In this document: piece after piece, positions 10,183-25,826 of the stretch
Layout: every line of letters begins with the position of its first letter
How positions within the stretch are numbered: position 1 is the stretch's first letter
Assembly (NCBI RefSeq): GCF_900105965.1
Contig: NZ_FNTV01000001.1
Span: forward strand, 558,001-622,000
DNA length: 64,000 bases
Source: Arthrobacter alpinus
GTDB taxonomy: Bacteria > Actinomycetota > Actinomycetes > Actinomycetales > Micrococcaceae
Direction: 5' to 3'
Made by a program: the position numbers and the translations under genes
The notes under the pieces: model-generated
Database searches by the model: none
What the model saw: the letters and a program-made list of their open reading frames with translations, nothing else
What the model was told of the DNA's origin: nothing

Positions 10183-11862
10183 TTACGGCCGACGTCCGGC
10201 AACGAGGATTGAAACGAGCATGGGTAGCAGCGGCAGGCACAGTGCCGTGAGGAAAGTCGGTCCGAGCATGCGGAAATAAATGTCAACTTCACCTTGGCTA
10301 AACATGACGTTCCAGAACAACAGCCAGGCTGCAACGACCATGATTGTTGAGGTACGCCCCAGAGCCACAGCCACGAGCCCCACGTTTCTGCGCAGGGCCA
10401 CCGCCACACCCAGCACGAGAACCAGCAGTTGGAGTCCGAACGCGGCAATGGGGGCCGAACCCAGGCCCCACAGAATCTTCGACACCACAGAGACACGAGT
10501 GTCCTGGGAGTACTCTGCCTGGCCGCTTTCCTGAGTGTGGTGACCCAAATAGTTCATTTGCGGTCGAACCAGGGCCAGAACCCCACGTTCTGACAGGCTC
10601 ACCAAGCGCTCCGGGTGGGTCAGGTAAAAGCCAGCCAATTTCAGGTTGGCAACCTCAGTTGTGAACTGCTCGAAGTTCGGATTGTTGACCCCAGAATCGG
10701 CCGTTCCATAACTGGTCCCGGCGTACCGGGCAAAATCAGCGCCTACCCCAAACCACGCCAAATCCCCTTCAGGGTTGGGGCTGTAAGCCAAAACCTCCGC
10801 GAAGACTGCGTTGTACAGCTGTGCTTCACGGTCTTTGTGCGCAGTGGCGCCCAAGGCCAGGGCAGCTCCGGCGGTTAGTACAACAATCACCATGGTTGCG
10901 GCAATGCGCCGGATGAACCGGTATTTGCCGGTGGCCTCGAGGGTAGTTGAAGCGCCCACGCGAGTACGGGATGGACGCCACCAGAGGGCCAGCGCCAGCG
11001 CTGGCAGAATCGCCACTGTTTGCGGATCCGCTGTAAATACACAGAGGGCGGCCACAGCCACGCCTACGAGACCTGGGATGGTCACCGTGTCGCGGCGCCA
11101 AAGAAATAGCAGTGAGACAAACAACCCGAAGAGCCCCAGAAAAAGAGCTGCTTGGGGGTATGGGGAAACGAAAAAGACGGCAAAGCTACTGTCTGAGACG
11201 ACAGCGGTCATTCCAGCAGCTGCCAAGAGGCGGAACGGCAAGCGGCCAGGGCAGGCCACAACAAAACCAGCCAACAACAGTCCAAACACTGCGGCGCTGA
11301 CAACGGCAATTGCGCGGGTGTCCAAACCATCGCCCCACCCCAGCACCGGCGTCAGGAGCTGGCCCAGCCACGCCAGAAGATGCGGCGAGGAGAACCAGTA
11401 CAGCGAGTCACTATTTGCCGGACAGGCCTCTCCAACCCAGCTGTGAGGAACCCACTGCGGGAAGATGAACTGGGTGAACTCTTGGTAGCTCCAAGGGCGG
11501 ACATTGCTGAGTCCCAGCCGGCACATCATCATGAACCCGTCGCCACGGTCTGCGACGCCAACGGTGGAGGGCAGCAGCAGCCGAACGAGGACCACCGTGG
11601 CCGCCATGATTCCTGCAACGGCCGCGGCGAGGCCGTGATGTTGAATCCTACGAACGGGGCTGCCCGGGCTGAAAGTGGTCCCAAACCACCGGAATGCAAG
11701 GCTGGCATAGCGCTGGCGAGTGGGTTTCTCTGCGACTGCCACAGAAGCGTTTCCAGGATTGGCCGCGGGTTGATTACCGGTTTCGGGACCATCGCCAATT
11801 GTGGAAGACGGCCCATCATTTTCAGCTGATGCGCTACTGCCAGCTGCGGAAGTTTCAATCAT
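10183..11862 (-). CDS. Large multipass membrane protein of the exosortase island (GT-C-like?)
   Basis: A 559-residue integral membrane protein that I do not recognise by family. The first ~75 residues are polar and Ser/Ala/Pro-rich, probably cytoplasmic. They are followed by a first hydrophobic helix (GLAAAVAGIMAATVVLV), a predicted outside loop with GVADRGDGF and three aromatic-rich segments, then roughly ten further hydrophobic segments. An early acidic motif after the first helix and a multipass body resemble GT-C lipid-linked glycosyltransferases, so sugar transfer at the membrane is a plausible guess only. Its ATG overlaps the end of the lipoprotein gene by eight bases (ATGATTGA), so it is co-translated with the island. 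It is the last gene of the leftward operon and ends next to the ftsY terminator. Confidence 0.75.
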   Translation of the reverse strand: MIETSAAGSSASAENDGPSSTIGDGPETGNQPAANPGNASVAVAEKPTRQRYASLAFRWFGTTFSPGSPVRRIQHHGLAAAVAGIMAATVVLVRLLLPSTVGVADRGDGFMMMCRLGLSNVRPWSYQEFTQFIFPQWVPHSWVGEACPANSDSLYWFSSPHLLAWLGQLLTPVLGWGDGLDTRAIAVVSAAVFGLLLAGFVVACPGRLPFRLLAAAGMTAVVSDSSFAVFFVSPYPQAALFLGLFGLFVSLLFLWRRDTVTIPGLVGVAVAALCVFTADPQTVAILPALALALWWRPSRTRVGASTTLEATGKYRFIRRIAATMVIVVLTAGAALALGATAHKDREAQLYNAVFAEVLAYSPNPEGDLAWFGVGADFARYAGTSYGTADSGVNNPNFEQFTTEVANLKLAGFYLTHPERLVSLSERGVLALVRPQMNYLGHHTQESGQAEYSQDTRVSVVSKILWGLGSAPIAAFGLQLLVLVLGVAVALRRNVGLVAVALGRTSTIMVVAAWLLFWNVMFSQGEVDIYFRMLGPTFLTALCLPLLPMLVSILVAGRRP

Positions 11863-12676
11863 GGAGCAAGGTGCCCTTCAAAGTCTTGGAGTCTTTCGAT
11901 CGAACGGCGCATCGAAGCGTTGACATTCCATTTCCCGGCACAACGATTCCGGTAACCGCTACGCCTTCCGGGATGGGGGCGGGAGCAAAGAATTCTTCGG
12001 CAAATGGTGTGCACTTGCCCAGAACCTCAGCTTCGGGGGGATTGCTGTTGTTGATGTTCAGCCAAGCGTTGATATCTTCGCCAACATGTGGTTCCGAACA
12101 CAAGACGACCGTCAGGCTGGGTTCCTTTGACGGTTCTGGAAAAGGCGCGTCCGGGTAGCATGTGCGCAGCCGAGCCGAGGCAGGCGTTGCCATCACGTCC
12201 TGGAGTGAGCCAGTGAGCAATACAGGTTCGTCACTGCCGGGGCTCTTGACCACAAGATCGCACCGAACCGTCCGGTCTCCAGCACTCCAAGCGGTTGTTT
12301 CTGGAAAGTAGGCTGTGATTCCAAGAGCAGAACTTGTGTCACGGTCCCGTGCACCCAGATAATCGCGCAGCATCTCAACGGTGCAGTATTGACTCGTTAC
12401 CGCTGCCAAACGTGATGAGTTTGGGCGGGAATCGCTGGCGGCCAGACTGCCCAGCAATTTAGCAATCCGAAACGTCTCGCTGGTGTGATCCGAGGTGCAG
12501 GGGACTGCCGGCTTAGTGTCACTCACGGCCTCGTTTTCCTCAGGCGTCGTGAGGAGGTGACATGAAGACACCTCAACGTTCGTTGCGGCAGGGCGTTCAA
12601 CGGGCAAGGTGCCACAGGCGGAAGTAACCAGCACAATCCCCAAGGTCGCCGCTAGTCGAAAACGTGCACGGATCAT
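11855..12676 (-). CDS. Septum-formation-like lipoprotein
   Basis: A 273-residue secreted lipoprotein. The signal peptide ends in the lipobox TSAC with Cys21. Two repeat-like halves follow the actinobacterial septum-formation domain pattern: a Cys, then a spaced Cys and His before a TFR/EDI block (SCHLL...VPCTSDHTSETF near residues 38-70, and RTCYPD...VVLCSEPHVGEDI near 170-205). It probably sits on the outer face of the membrane. The start overlaps the exosortase-like gene by four bases (ATGA) and the stop overlaps the membrane-protein gene. That places it in the protein-sorting operon rather than with division genes. A chaperone or assembly role for the sorted surface protein is an inference. 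Confidence 0.75.
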   Translation of the reverse strand: MIRARFRLAATLGIVLVTSACGTLPVERPAATNVEVSSCHLLTTPEENEAVSDTKPAVPCTSDHTSETFRIAKLLGSLAASDSRPNSSRLAAVTSQYCTVEMLRDYLGARDRDTSSALGITAYFPETTAWSAGDRTVRCDLVVKSPGSDEPVLLTGSLQDVMATPASARLRTCYPDAPFPEPSKEPSLTVVLCSEPHVGEDINAWLNINNSNPPEAEVLGKCTPFAEEFFAPAPIPEGVAVTGIVVPGNGMSTLRCAVRSKDSKTLKGTLLHD

Positions 12677-13248
12677 CCTCGTGACTGCTTGGCTGACTTG
12701 CGCGCAGACATGACCAGCACAATGAAGGCGCCCACGAAACCGATAATCACGACGATCGAACCCAGGTAATGATGCATGAGGTCAAACCCGGTCTGCCCCC
12801 ACCAGACGAGACCGAAAACGATCATGAGAAAACGGAGAACATTGCAGGCGGCTACGATGATTAGGCTCACGATGAGCGCACGGACCAGCGAGCCGCGTTG
12901 GCAACGCCCTGACAATAGAATCAGTCCTGCCGCTGCCAGCAGAGGCACCCACAGCACGGCTGTTGAACAAAGTGCCGTGATATTCAATCCATAGGGAACG
13001 TTGTCGCCCATTCGGAACACCACCATGCTGGCAACGCTGTAAACGCTTGTATCGGAGAACAACTGCAGCGTCCCGGCAAAGGCGCGGGCCTCAAGTGTGC
13101 GGAGCTGATCCTGAAACATGATCAAGGCTGCAGCGCCGGCAAACAGCATGAGGGCGGGGAAGCCGTGCGGCCGTGGAGCCCTGATCGCTGCGTTCGTTGG
13201 CGGGTTCGAAGCGTTTGGCACAGGGACGTGCGCGGGAGTCGTCGTCAT
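12673..13248 (-). CDS. Exosortase/archaeosortase-like transpeptidase
   Basis: A 191-residue multipass membrane protein with the three signature residues of exosortases in the right order and topology: Cys94 in TALCSTAVLW, Arg139 in CNVLRFLMI, and His159/His160 in LMHHYLGSIV, each at a membrane-segment boundary. Exosortases recognise a C-terminal motif plus helix plus basic tail on exported proteins and cleave or transfer them; the homologous class in Gram-negative bacteria handles PEP-CTERM proteins. It overlaps the GT2 gene by one base (TAATG) and the lipoprotein gene by four. Two proteins with suitable C-terminal tails are encoded directly upstream. The protein is short for the family (many are 270-300 residues), as is common for minimal actinobacterial forms. 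I identify it by triad and context, not by database search. Confidence 0.75.
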   Translation of the reverse strand: MTTTPAHVPVPNASNPPTNAAIRAPRPHGFPALMLFAGAAALIMFQDQLRTLEARAFAGTLQLFSDTSVYSVASMVVFRMGDNVPYGLNITALCSTAVLWVPLLAAAGLILLSGRCQRGSLVRALIVSLIIVAACNVLRFLMIVFGLVWWGQTGFDLMHHYLGSIVVIIGFVGAFIVLVMSARKSAKQSRG

Positions 13249-14603
13249 TAGGCTTCCTTTGCCAGTAGCTGGGCGTCAGATTCATTGTTTCGGCGGGTCT
13301 TGGCCCAGCCATTGCGGCCCGTAAGCATACGGAAACCGGCCCGCAGAACACACACGTAGCTTTGGTACATGTACAGCCAGTAGCCAACGCCCCAGACCAG
13401 ACCCATGAAAAAGTTGCGGCCAGGTTCTGCTTGGCGGCGGTAGATTGGCCCCCACAATGCGAACGGGACAACACCGGTCAAGAGAATGAGGGGGATGAGC
13501 CACCAGGCTTGACTCAGCCACAGGGCGACGCTGCCCGCCGTGACGGCACCGCTACCAATCATCGACAGGAAAAGGGTCGGCCACAGGAACAGGCCAATGA
13601 GCTGAACATAGGGAATCAGCAGGAAATAACTGGATTCCAGCGCCCCAAGGTTGGTGAAGTGGGGAGAAACGAAGATGTTCTTGAGGTAACGGCTGCACTG
13701 CATGCCGCCTTGGCACCAGCGAGTACGTTGGGTCAGCAGGCGTCGTACCGAGGGCAGGGCTTCCTGCGAGACATGGGTGTCGTGCATGTAGACGGTGTGG
13801 TGGCCGGCAAGCATGATGTGGATGGCGAGCTCATAGTCTTCCAGGAGCCCACCGTGCCAGGGGCGTTTGGCGATGTCGGCGACGGCATCCAGTGCCGAGA
13901 GCCGGGTGAACTGGCCATTTCCGCCAAGACCCACGGACAGTGTGTGTCGACGCAAGGACTGCATGGCAGCAATGGTGGTACGGAATTCTATGTCCTGCAT
14001 ACGCACAAGGTACCTGGCCATGGCTTGTTTCAGGCGGGAATTTCCGCTGGCCGGGTTGGGGTCATTGCGGTTGCGCATCCATACGGCGGCCTGCGCGGCG
14101 CCAACCGTCGGATCGCCAAACGCGAGTGAACCGGAGGCCTGCGCCAAAGCGTTGGGGGCCAGCTCTCCATCACCATCAACGACTGCCACGATGCAGCGGG
14201 TGCGGTCCGTGGTGGCCGGGAGCCAGGCATTGAGTGCCGCATATGCGGCGTTCAAGGCATCGCCCTTTCCTGTCCTGGCATTCGGGCGCCTGCGTTGGAT
14301 CAGATGGATCTTGCTGTTTTCACGCGACATGGCCACGACAACCTCGGCGGTGCTATCTTCACTGTCATCGTCGATGACCCAGATGTGGGCACCCGGGAAC
14401 TGGGTGACGAGGGATCTGACAGTGTTCTTGATGACCACTTCTTCATCTCGGCAGGGAATGAAGAAGTGCCAATCGAAGAGCGTTGGGTCACCTTCCGGAT
14501 CCTGTTTTCTGGTCAGGAAGGGAACCAGCAGGATTGCGACGTACGCCAAGAAGGTAACCAATAGGACGAAGGCAAGTGCCTGGGCCGATTCAAAAAAAGA
14601 CAA
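13248..14603 (-). CDS. Processive GT2 glycosyltransferase, membrane-bound
   Basis: A 451-residue cellulose/hyaluronan-synthase-like family 2 glycosyltransferase. It has one N-terminal helix (residues 9-30), a cytoplasmic catalytic domain and four C-terminal helices. The catalytic signature is complete: DDDSED (78-83), DGDGE (143-147), EDYE (255-258) and QRTRW (292-296), the last being the QxxRW motif of processive enzymes. It likely polymerises a glycan from nucleotide sugar and threads it across the membrane. I chose the TTG start at 14603, after GGGGAC, because earlier in-frame starts would place a large hairpin (14633-14669) inside the coding region; a TTG at 14675 is possible. It is the first of four overlapping genes leading to the exosortase-like protein. 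Confidence 0.88.
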   Translation of the reverse strand: MSFFESAQALAFVLLVTFLAYVAILLVPFLTRKQDPEGDPTLFDWHFFIPCRDEEVVIKNTVRSLVTQFPGAHIWVIDDDSEDSTAEVVVAMSRENSKIHLIQRRRPNARTGKGDALNAAYAALNAWLPATTDRTRCIVAVVDGDGELAPNALAQASGSLAFGDPTVGAAQAAVWMRNRNDPNPASGNSRLKQAMARYLVRMQDIEFRTTIAAMQSLRRHTLSVGLGGNGQFTRLSALDAVADIAKRPWHGGLLEDYELAIHIMLAGHHTVYMHDTHVSQEALPSVRRLLTQRTRWCQGGMQCSRYLKNIFVSPHFTNLGALESSYFLLIPYVQLIGLFLWPTLFLSMIGSGAVTAGSVALWLSQAWWLIPLILLTGVVPFALWGPIYRRQAEPGRNFFMGLVWGVGYWLYMYQSYVCVLRAGFRMLTGRNGWAKTRRNNESDAQLLAKEA

Positions 14604-14632
14604 TATGTCCCCAGAGCTAATGGATGCGGGTA

Positions 14633-14669
14633 GTGCGGACCCGGGCTTGTAACAAGCCCGGACCCGCAC
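14633..14669 (-). terminator. Hairpin between substrate genes and sorting machinery
   Basis: GTGCGG-AC-CCGGGCTTG pairs with CAAGCCCGG-AC-CCGCAC across a TAA loop: 9 bp, a 2x2 internal loop and 6 bp. It lies 33 bases after the 55-residue gene in the direction of transcription and has no U-tract. It is probably an attenuator or mRNA-stabilising hairpin that keeps machinery expression below substrate expression. Confidence 0.55.
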
Positions 14670-14702
14670 CGTCAATGCAAGGTGGTACTAACTAACGACG
14701 TC

Positions 14703-14870
14703 TTATTGGACGCTTTGCTTCTTCCGGCTGACAGAGCGCAGCAGAAAGAATCCAGCTACCAAGACCACTGCAGCAATGAGCAGGTACCAGCCCAGCGGGC
14801 CAGCTCCTGTAGCTGCTAGTGCTCCGGCGCCGGCAGCTGTTCCGCCGCCGCCAATTTTTGGTCCGTACAT
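14703..14870 (-). CDS. 55-residue tail-anchored mini-protein, probable sorting substrate
   Basis: A 55-residue protein. The start is the ATG at 14870, preceded by GGGAGC at good spacing and only 13 bases after the upstream gene's stop. It has no N-terminal signal peptide. After a Gly/Ala-rich head (GPKIGGGGTAAGAGA) comes ALAATGAGPLG, then a single helix (WYLLIAAVVLVAGFFLL) and a basic tail (RSVSRKK). That is the layout of a C-terminal sorting signal: LAATG fits the LAxTG motif of class E sortases, while the helix-basic tail also resembles the neighbouring anchor protein. It may be an accessory substrate or a membrane adaptor of the exosortase. Small size makes it easy to miss in annotation. 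Confidence 0.65.
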   Translation of the reverse strand: MYGPKIGGGGTAAGAGALAATGAGPLGWYLLIAAVVLVAGFFLLRSVSRKKQSVQ

Positions 14871-14883
14871 GTGTGATTGCTCC

Positions 14884-16164
14884 CTAGGCCATTGCCACGG
14901 TGCTGGCTGCACCGTTGCGACGGCGACGAACGACAAACATGCCCAACAGCACGATCAGACCGAGGCCACCAGCGATGGCCAGGCTGTCCTTGTTGACGAC
15001 CGGAATCGCAGCGGTGGTCAGGTTCGGTCCAACGCTTGCCGAAGCCAGGTCAATTGTGGTCAAAGAACCATTGAGCAGGCTCAGCTGAAGTGCTGTCTGA
15101 GTGAACGTGCCTGCCGTGGTGCTTTGTACGTTGACCTTCAGTGCAGCAATGTTGCTCACTGCGGCACTCAACGGGGGTAGCAGTGAGGTGCTCAAGCCGG
15201 TCAGCAGGGGATTCAGAATTCCCTGTGCCGTGGCGAGAGCAGCGCGGGCGACGATGCCGAGCACACCCGCGGGGATTGCTGCACCAACACTTGTCAGGAG
15301 GTCATTTACGATTTTTGTAAGCTTGGCGACTACGGCCTGCGGCAGGTACTGCAACAGGTCGGTGCCGGCGGGCAAGGCATTGATGTTGGCAACTCCAGCA
15401 GCTGCGAGCAGCTCGGCTTCGGTGATGGCAATCTTGCCACTGGCCAAGGGGTTGGTGATGTCTACGCCAACGAGAGATACGGCGGCCAAGAGGGTGTTGA
15501 TCGCCGGGTTAAGCGTGTTGGCAACACCTTGAATCACGGTTCCACCCACGGATGCGCTGACGCCGGCTACGTTGTACTGACCAACCGGGGCTGCGTCGAC
15601 GTCCTGCTTTGCAGCCGCGGCTAGTACACCGACCTGGAGATCAATGTTGACGAGGTCGGCTCCACCCAGCAAACCGGCCGTGCCAACCATGACGCGAGCT
15701 GCCGGCAATGCCGGATCGCCTGCGACAGGAAGGTTTCCGGGCAGGGTGACCAGCGACGGTGCGCCGGATACCAGGCCGGAGAAGGCTTCAGAGGAGCCAT
15801 CGTTGACGGCGTGGCCGTACTGGCCGACAGCGCCAAGCTGGATGATGCCATTGTTGCCAAGCAACGGAATGTTGCCAGCACCAACGTTAAGAATGCCCAG
15901 AGCGCTGAGGTCCAACGGCTGGTTGGCAACTACGTCTGCAGTCGTACCATCGTTGATGGCAGTTGCCGCACCGTTCTTGAGGTCAAGAGCGAAGTTCGGG
16001 TAGCTAAGAAGCGACCCGTTTAGCAGCTGGCCTGATCCCTGGCTGATGACGTCTCCGGGAGCGGCCTGTGCAGGCGCTCCCGCCAACATGCCAAGTGCCA
16101 GAGCGGCAACGGTTGCCGTTCCAACGGCGCCCGACCAAGCGCGCACAGTTTTAGTCTTGTTCAT
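14884..16164 (-). CDS. Exported choice-of-anchor-G-like surface protein
   Basis: A 426-residue secreted protein. It has a classical signal peptide (Lys/Arg head, hydrophobic core, cleavage after APAQA near residue 35), a low-complexity Ala/Leu/Val/Gly-rich body almost devoid of Cys, and a C-terminal sorting tail: PVVNKDSLAIAGG, helix, then RRRRNG. The body (SYPNFALDLKNG, GAVGQYGHA, then Asn-Thr rich beta segments) resembles the choice-of-anchor G family of actinobacterial surface proteins. Neither LPxTG nor PEP-CTERM is present, so the presumed processing enzyme is the exosortase-like protein encoded 1.6 kb downstream. A strong AGGGGAA site precedes the ATG. It is the first gene of the island and is likely the main substrate. 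Confidence 0.8.
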   Translation of the reverse strand: MNKTKTVRAWSGAVGTATVAALALGMLAGAPAQAAPGDVISQGSGQLLNGSLLSYPNFALDLKNGAATAINDGTTADVVANQPLDLSALGILNVGAGNIPLLGNNGIIQLGAVGQYGHAVNDGSSEAFSGLVSGAPSLVTLPGNLPVAGDPALPAARVMVGTAGLLGGADLVNIDLQVGVLAAAAKQDVDAAPVGQYNVAGVSASVGGTVIQGVANTLNPAINTLLAAVSLVGVDITNPLASGKIAITEAELLAAAGVANINALPAGTDLLQYLPQAVVAKLTKIVNDLLTSVGAAIPAGVLGIVARAALATAQGILNPLLTGLSTSLLPPLSAAVSNIAALKVNVQSTTAGTFTQTALQLSLLNGSLTTIDLASASVGPNLTTAAIPVVNKDSLAIAGGLGLIVLLGMFVVRRRRNGAASTVAMA

Positions 16165-16904
16165 TTAGTGGTTCCCCTAATAATTTGACTTTCGAGTACC
16201 TCAAGTACCGCCAACCGAAGGCTTAAAGCAGCTCTTCGATCCCCCCAATGGAACCGATTATTTTGCGAATGATACCGACAAGTCATGTCCAAGGTTGGTA
16301 GTGGCGAAACGGAACATACCGAGCGTCTGTCAACATTAATTGCAATGAAAAAATACGGGGAAAATCAGATCTGACAGCGGTCAGTTGAATTTCCCGAGAC
16401 CTTTATGTAATTGTTATGATTTCCTTTTTAGCGGTACTGCGTGCTTGCTATCACAAGGCAATCACAGTCAATATTCTCTCATCGGCAGTCGGAAAACCTG
16501 AGTGCCAGGCGGCTAAAATTGATTAGCCAAGTGGCTAAAATGTGGCGCTAATAATAGCCAGTTGGCTTTACCGGCAGCCTCGATTTAATTCGCTTCTGAG
16601 ATTATCTGACTAACATTGGGACCGGTCACTTGGTTGGCTGTGTACAGAGCGGAGTTGGCATCAGTGATGGAATCTATGTGCCAGCCATGACATGGGCGCG
16701 TCACAGGACTCTGTTTGATTCGAGATAGGACGCTGGCGCGCTATTCTTGGAGAAGTAGGCTTCGGGGGAAATACGTTATCGCCTCCTTCCATGCACGTGT
16801 GCATGGTGGGTAGCCGGATGTCACGTACCAATGCAATCTCGACCAGCCGGGTGGATCGTAAAGATCGTCCAGGCTAGTCCGGTAAGCGGTTACGTATTAG
16901 CTGC
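16165..16904. promoter_or_regulatory. 740-base non-coding divergent region with operator-like array
   Basis: No supportable gene lies between the surface-protein gene (-) and the LuxR-type regulator (+). The region is visibly more A+T rich than its neighbours. At 16503-16568 it holds related dyads: TGCCA-GG-CGGCTA (16503-16515), a perfect TAGCCA-AG-TGGCTA (16524-16537) and TAGCCA-GT-TGGCTT (16555-16568). The centres of the last two are 31 bases apart, about three helical turns. A further hairpin, CCATGCAC/GTGCATGG, occurs at 16789-16806. These look like binding sites for the divergent regulator plus a structured leader. Confidence 0.5.
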
Positions 16905-16922
16905 ATGGATAAGGGTTGGAAA

Positions 16923-17588
16923 ATGAATGTCGGAACTATACAGACCGTAGCGACCCTGCAGATGGCAGTCGTCGGATGCGACTACGTCACGAATCTCGGC
17001 CTGTCCCAACTCTTGAACCGCGCCAATTACATCAATGTGTTGGCTTCCGTGCCCAGCTTGCCAGCTCTCAATTCGGTCATGGAAACATCTAACGTGGATC
17101 TGGTTCTCATTGATGCGGGCATTCCACTCATGGACTTGATGCACATTTGCCGGGAACTTGCCGCGGCGGAAACCTCGCCCACCGTGGTGGTGATGGGGGA
17201 CCTGCCCTTTGAAGTTACCGAATCCCTCATCTTTGCCGGTGTTAGCGCAATCCTGAACAATGGCGTGGTTGCGGAAGATATTCCCACTGCTTTGCGCATG
17301 GCTCATCGAGGTGGCGCAGTGTTAGTCAACAAGGGCTCCCGTCTTGCCTTGATGGAGCGCAGCAACAGCTACGATATTGGCAATCGCGTTCGCTTTGACG
17401 GCCTCAATACTCGCGAACGAGCCGTGGCCCTCGGCGTTGCTGAAGGGAAGTCCAACGGACAATTGGCCTCGGAACTTCATGTCAGTGAAGCAACGGTGAA
17501 GCTTCTGGTTTCAAACGTCATGGGTAAGCTACGTGTTTCCAATCGAGTCCAGATCGCCGTTGTGGTCACCAAAGCCCGTCTCGTCTGA
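16923..17588 (+). CDS. LuxR-family response regulator with degenerate receiver
   Basis: A 221-residue NarL/FixJ-type regulator with an N-terminal receiver-like domain and a C-terminal LuxR helix-turn-helix (residues ~158-215; LNTRERAVALGVAEGKSNGQ, then SEATVKLLVSNVMGKL). The presumed phospho-acceptor Asp64 is kept (VLIDAG). However, the acidic pair after strand 1 is reduced to GCDY, the usual Thr/Ser after strand 4 is Met-Gly (VVVMGD) and the conserved Lys after strand 5 is Asn (AILNNG). Phosphorylation may therefore be absent or atypical. An AAGGG site suits the ATG at 16923; an ATG at 16905 is in frame. No sensor kinase adjoins it. It diverges from the surface-protein operon, which it probably controls. 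Confidence 0.8.
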   Translation: MNVGTIQTVATLQMAVVGCDYVTNLGLSQLLNRANYINVLASVPSLPALNSVMETSNVDLVLIDAGIPLMDLMHICRELAAAETSPTVVVMGDLPFEVTESLIFAGVSAILNNGVVAEDIPTALRMAHRGGAVLVNKGSRLALMERSNSYDIGNRVRFDGLNTRERAVALGVAEGKSNGQLASELHVSEATVKLLVSNVMGKLRVSNRVQIAVVVTKARLV

Positions 17589-23926: not shown

Positions 23927-25770
<1,844 letters not shown>

Positions 25771-25826
25771 TCAGAGTCGAAGCTACACGATCAACGGGGT
25801 CCGATGTCAAGCCGTAGGATCGGTGC

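Follow-up and report, generated by a model that had tools for sequence, protein, structure and literature searches.

An exosortase S locus of Arthrobacter alpinus with a dedicated cargo protein and a co-occurring 55-residue mini-protein

We analyzed a compact block of six genes in a stretch of 64,000 nucleotides from Arthrobacter alpinus (the window, whose numbering is used here). The block encodes an exosortase, a putative substrate (the cargo), a mini-protein and enzymes of glycan synthesis, all on the minus strand. Inspection of the sequence and of its open reading frames confirmed the six genes at the coordinates given by the initial annotation, which had been made from the DNA letters alone. 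The gene overlaps that it listed were also borne out: the GT2 and exosortase genes share 1 base, the exosortase and lipoprotein genes 4, and the lipoprotein and multipass protein genes 8. The features are as follows.

14884 to 16164, minus strand: cargo, a choice-of-anchor G protein of 426 amino acids (aa) (NF033766, NF051874)
14703 to 14870, minus strand: mini-protein of 55 aa with MY start, LAATG, one transmembrane segment (TM) and a basic tail; passes no model
13248 to 14603 (frame open to 14675), minus strand: GT2 membrane glycosyltransferase (NF053846; motifs DDD, DGD, ED and QRTRW)
12673 to 13248, minus strand: exosortase S (XrtS), 191 aa (NF033767; Cys94, Arg139 and His159)
11855 to 12676, minus strand: lipoprotein with a Septum_form domain (PF13845)
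10183 to 11862, minus strand: predicted WsfD-type multipass hexose transferase, 559 aa (NF051875)

The GT2 gene was present as placed, but its start, originally set at 14675 for a protein of 475 aa, is likelier to be the TTG at 14603 (451 aa), which has GGGGACATA upstream. In the 475-aa reading, the match to NF053846 begins only at residue 31.

The 191-aa protein matched the exosortase S model NF033767 with 202.5 bits (cut-off 145) and the superfamily model TIGR04178 with 26.8 bits (cut-off 23). It stayed below the cut-off of PF09721 (22.2 versus 25.7 bits) and did not pass the models for exosortase P (NF012139, 62.6 of 200 bits) and exosortase R (NF012138, 54.4 of 150 bits). In an alignment of 36 exosortases, comprising that of the window and those of 35 named loci, Cys94, Arg139 and His159 were invariant, as were Glu53, Pro102, Asn136 and Gly163. 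A survey of the order gave a broader set of 23 matches, and here too these Cys, Arg and His columns did not vary. The triad had been predicted as Cys94/Arg139/His159-160; of the two histidines only the first holds, as position 160 is His in only 18 of the 36 sequences. The source genome contains a single match to the exosortase S protein. Exosortase S is rare among the sampled genomes: the cut-off was exceeded in 4 of 149 genomes of the family and in 3 of 396 genomes of the order, and at an E value of 1e-3 the model found 25 of these 396.

The cargo matched both the choice-of-anchor G model NF033766 (129.5 bits, cut-off 45) and the PVV-CTERM model NF051874 (44.7 bits, cut-off 27). It has a signal-like segment at its N-terminus and a PVV-CTERM tail at its C-terminus (IPVVNKDS, a TM and RRRR), and in its AlphaFold model (pLDDT, the predicted local distance difference test, 82.3) the final helix spans residues 392-422. 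An Arthrobacter alpinus homologue matched it at 88%. Within the source genome it is the one PVV-CTERM protein above the cut-off, next to weaker matches below it, and its gene adjoins that of XrtS. The same genome encodes a second choice-of-anchor G protein (L206, G000:C1:2114000-2120000, a 647-aa frame) that lacks a sorting tail. It is nearly certain that the locus is an exosortase S with a dedicated cargo. The initial annotation had made its exosortase reading depend on a match to an exosortase model, conservation of the triad and co-occurrence with tail-bearing proteins; all three were found, the last at 35 of 35 exosortase loci.

Two further proteins passed curated models, in line with the glycan enzymes anticipated for the island. 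The GT2 matched NF053846, the XrtP-associated glycosyltransferase, with 636.5 bits (cut-off 520), and its four motifs were read directly from the sequence. The multipass protein matched NF051875, the WsfD hexose transferase, with 268.7 bits (cut-off 80), which predicts its activity. The lipoprotein gave 67 bits with Septum_form (cut-off 25) and has a lipobox-like SAC; a second C..H..E stretch suggests that its domain may be duplicated (pLDDT of the structure model 69.5). From a set of 79 homologues, alignment A4 used 24, plus two locus translations (26 sequences), and A5 used 14. WsfD was found in 3 of the 396 order genomes, in four copies with a strong lipoprotein match beside each. An exosortase lies next to three of these copies. 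The remaining one, in the source genome, belongs to a second lipoprotein and WsfD pair without an adjoining exosortase (L094:8366-10914; G000:C1:2583865-2586413). Beside this orphan pair lies a reverse transcriptase with YADD (L094:5027-6595), which is presumably retron-like, and a sialidase-like protein is encoded at L094:14849-17161. Among the 35 exosortase loci, 23 have a WsfD homologue, with two weak matches in Curtobacterium (63-66 bits), and 22 the lipoprotein, which was undetected beside WsfD at L109. Given these counts, the pair is an optional module.

Four of the six proteins (cargo, GT2, exosortase and multipass protein) passed curated NCBIfam cut-offs, and most of the gene set is therefore of a known kind; the earlier statement that no function had been described for it was too strong. 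As a protein-anchoring gene set, an exosortase S accompanied by a single cargo of its own and by enzymes acting on sugars is of a known kind, carried here by a soil actinobacterium. The models for exosortase S and PVV-CTERM are both passed here by adjacent genes, and the two proteins themselves do not differ from that system. The exosortase P and R systems (NF012139, NF012138, NF053846) likewise pair an exosortase with GT2; the window protein is S and not P or R, and several relatives score alike on the P, R and S models and pass none. The arrangement is more than chance, because the order of all six genes recurs identically at L033 and L037, four of the proteins pass curated NCBIfam models and Septum_form covers the lipoprotein. 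What sets the locus apart, and is new here, is the 55-aa mini-protein between cargo and GT2, which co-occurs with exosortase and GT2; we found no paper that describes this partner or its strict co-occurrence with exosortase S.

The mini-protein consists of an MY start, a Gly/Ala-rich head, LAATG, a single TM and a basic tail. Its ATG lies 13 bases past the cargo stop codon and is preceded by GGGAG. The ratio of nonsynonymous to synonymous change (dN/dS-like) was 0.08 (36 pairs), 0.21 (10) and 0.34 (15) in three sets of relatives. These low ratios and the Shine-Dalgarno-like GGGAG support a real gene. A cargo-guided scan of genome contigs yielded 40 named loci with relatives of the cargo; 35 of them have both exosortase and GT2, and the mini-protein is present in exactly those 35. 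In the remaining five, all from Subtercola, the three were missing from the fetched stretch. Thirty of the 35 mini-proteins combine MY with [LI]AxTG, two have LAATG with an MS start (L124, L125), and three have MY without LAxTG. Overall, 48 mini-proteins were collected, 45 of them distinct in sequence and from at most 47 genomes, as L033 and L117 are apparently the same contig of 168,071 bases. [LI]AxTG is present in 45 of the 48 and Tyr2 in 46, and the start codon is ATG in 41 and GTG in 7. In the 45 distinct sequences, Lys and Arg number at most one ahead of the TM and two or more behind it; by the positive-inside rule, this charge bias argues for a head-out orientation.

Scanning the first survey for short proteins with LAxTG turned up 13 loci that encode one next to the exosortase. 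A second scan required no motif, only an MY start and a head-out TM; it was positive at 13 of 13 first-survey loci, at none of nine exosortase loci of families f7 and f14, and not at L035. It also gave one hit among 22 loci with GT2 only and one among the five Subtercola loci, both unlike the mini-protein family. L035 and L036 (G129:C2) are two more exosortase/GT2 loci of one genome, in addition to its exosortase S; the mini-protein occurs only at L036, where LAFTG and LASTG proteins are also nearby. The model for a LAXTG motif-containing small protein, NF058583, gave 38.8 bits with the window mini-protein; none of ten relatives exceeded its cut-off of 65 either, six of them scoring 29.6-37.7 bits. 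The weak likeness extends over the LAxTG-TM part.

Comparison of the cargo tails revealed an exchange of anchors. At all 35 exosortase loci, the tail consists of a TM and basic residues without LAxTG, mostly with P-x-V/A/I, and reads PVVN, PVAG, PLIN or PGP. At the five exosortase-free loci, the cargo ends in LAHTG in three cases and has no TM tail in two; an XrtS match was found in none of these five Subtercola genomes, versus five of five positive controls. Cargo relatives from a protein search (P0073, P0080-P0083) also carry LAHTG, LAATG or LAETG tails, and a family-level choice-of-anchor G protein of G106, a genome without an XrtS match, ends in LANTG. Both proteins upstream of the GT2 had been proposed as exosortase substrates, which was not supported. 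The cargo bears a suitable tail, but the 55-aa protein has LAATG, a class E sortase motif, and not the cargo tail motif.

With LAATG, TM and basic tail, the window mini-protein fits the substrate pattern of class E sortases, which it shares with chaplins and LAXTG proteins; it differs from these in that mini-proteins are 50-70 aa long, mostly lack an evident signal peptide, conserve the MY start and are tied to an exosortase. The source genome encodes a class E sortase (G000:C1:3411456-3412100, 241 bits, cut-off 160), and of 27 genomes searched for the enzyme, 26 had it above the cut-off, the miss being a metagenome-assembled genome of 2.1 Mb. Either the cargo or the mini-protein thus carries the sortase signal, and this is the main reason for reading the locus as a relay. 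To our knowledge, neither an outer membrane nor an exopolysaccharide sheath is required for exosortase cargo in Gram-positive bacteria, and the acceptor is therefore in question. In the available text of three papers, exosortases are thought to be transpeptidases whose new moiety on the cargo is unknown (PMC11980579), resolution of the acyl-enzyme by an amine is proposed for archaeosortase A (PMC7157517), and class E sortases recognise LAXTG as their signal (PMC5148588).

Alongside the observed gene identities, conservation, co-occurrence and tail swap, we infer the following chemical steps. The cargo would be exported and held in the membrane via its PVV tail, as its sequence indicates. Judging from its family, XrtS would cut the tail with Cys94 and form an acyl-enzyme. 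The acyl group would pass to an acceptor supplied by the neighbouring genes, namely the exposed head of the mini-protein, either bare or with a GT2-made glycan, which the WsfD homologue may branch outside the membrane. The housekeeping class E sortase would then cut the mini-protein at LAxT/G and link it to peptidoglycan, so that the cargo would be wall-bound through a short peptide.

The glycan probably derives from UDP-ManNAc or UDP-GlcNAc (the uridine diphosphate forms of N-acetylmannosamine and N-acetylglucosamine). A WecB-like UDP-GlcNAc 2-epimerase is encoded at 23 of the 35 exosortase loci and at none of the five exosortase-free loci. In Paenibacillus alvei, the available text of PMC2943079 credits WsfD with glucose addition to ManNAc of a Tyr-linked glycan. 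The window locus shares the WsfD match and the ManNAc theme with this S-layer glycan branching but lacks an S-layer cluster. WecB, the WsfD precedent and Tyr2 suggest, by analogy, a ManNAc glycan on the mini-protein.

These parts differ in strength. Transfer of the cargo to an acceptor made by neighbouring genes is likely. That the mini-protein serves as the wall link via class E sortase is possible, though we would place it somewhat below even. The self-contained exosortase S system as a whole, with the mini-protein, glycosylated or not, as acceptor and class E sortase leading to the wall, is likewise a tentative proposal. The full relay, in which XrtS would join the cargo to the N-terminal amine or Tyr2 glycan of the adaptor head and class E sortase the LAxT end to peptidoglycan, is rather unlikely in precisely this form.

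Several observations weigh against the proposal. Class E sortase is also present in the five Subtercola genomes, and its presence therefore does not discriminate. It was also found in the genomes of the three mini-proteins without LAxTG (L134, L136 and L137; two Curtobacterium, one Gryllotalpicola). Two of the 48 mini-proteins have lost Tyr2. A hydrophobic 12-mer upstream, by hydrophobicity count only, occurs in 7 of the 45 distinct sequences, and a signal peptide is not evident in most. Ten exosortase/GT2 loci, nine in families f7 and f14 plus L035, lack the mini-protein, and WecB was not found beside the window locus in the first 25 kb of the window. Finally, as all five exosortase-free loci belong to one genus, the tail swap represents few events.

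The strongest alternative is that XrtS passes the cargo directly to what GT2 makes (a glycan or a glycolipid), in keeping with the assumption for other exosortases. The mini-protein would then serve only as a subunit or stabiliser of GT2 or XrtS in the membrane, like the small partners of polysaccharide synthases, and its LAxTG would stay uncut. This is a serious possibility, though it too stays on the doubtful side. All 20 exosortase neighbourhoods that were fetched have GT2 beside the exosortase, including ten that lack the mini-protein or an LAxTG-bearing form of it; the three of 35 mini-proteins without LAxTG keep the rest of the protein; and the available text of PMC12188702 places exosortases usually within exopolysaccharide loci. 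However, 45 of 48 mini-proteins retain LAxTG despite the divergence of exosortase and cargo tails, and a subunit role leaves this sortase signal unexplained. Moreover, exosortase-free GT2 relatives have no such partner (none convincing at 22 loci, with one unrelated chance frame). Such relatives include L067-L077 and L089, and genes resembling histidine kinases and response regulators adjoin GT2 relatives in several loci (among those listed, L076, L077 and L089).

Alternatively, the mini-protein could be a second XrtS substrate, a small surface peptide or decoy processed independently of the cargo. The two genes are adjacent, and each product has a TM plus a basic tail, but one enzyme would have to accept two unlike motifs, LAxTG wherever a clade has retained it and PVVN, PVAG, PLIN or PGP on the cargo, and we regard this as improbable. 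Least probable is that XrtS merely frees the cargo beside a chemically unconnected glycan locus of the same operon: the acceptor is a prediction from sequence, and of the 38 order genomes with GT2 at an E value of 1e-60, 19 have an exosortase S-model match and 19 do not, but cargo, mini-protein, GT2 and exosortase stand together at 35 of 35 loci in several genera, and stop and start codons overlap between genes.

The block had been described as an island, and this was upheld by comparison. In six of six same-genus genomes, amtB, glnK and the G6PD gene come after ftsY, without relatives of the six proteins between ftsY and amtB, and exosortase S matched in none of seven such genomes (these six and a seventh). 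The six-gene block is thus an insertion between ftsY and amtB. A LuxR-type gene is retained in L100 and L102 and therefore lies outside the island. The compositional sign of insertion is not strong, as the guanine plus cytosine fraction is 0.57-0.60 across the block, 0.60-0.65 to its left and 0.51 at 16000-17000. Elsewhere in the window, a thiamine pyrophosphate (TPP) riboswitch was detected at 25666-25776 (minus strand; 56 bits against a gathering threshold of 54.3).

Across the loci, a single cargo family alternates between anchors for exosortase and for sortase. The sortase signal on the mini-protein hints at a possible relay between two unrelated anchoring machineries. Being present at 35 of 35 exosortase loci and carrying a sortase signal, the mini-protein is a specific and testable acceptor candidate. 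If the proposal is true, the acceptor of a Gram-positive exosortase would be identified, and an adaptor of about 55 aa would connect two non-homologous transpeptidases as a linker with two working ends.

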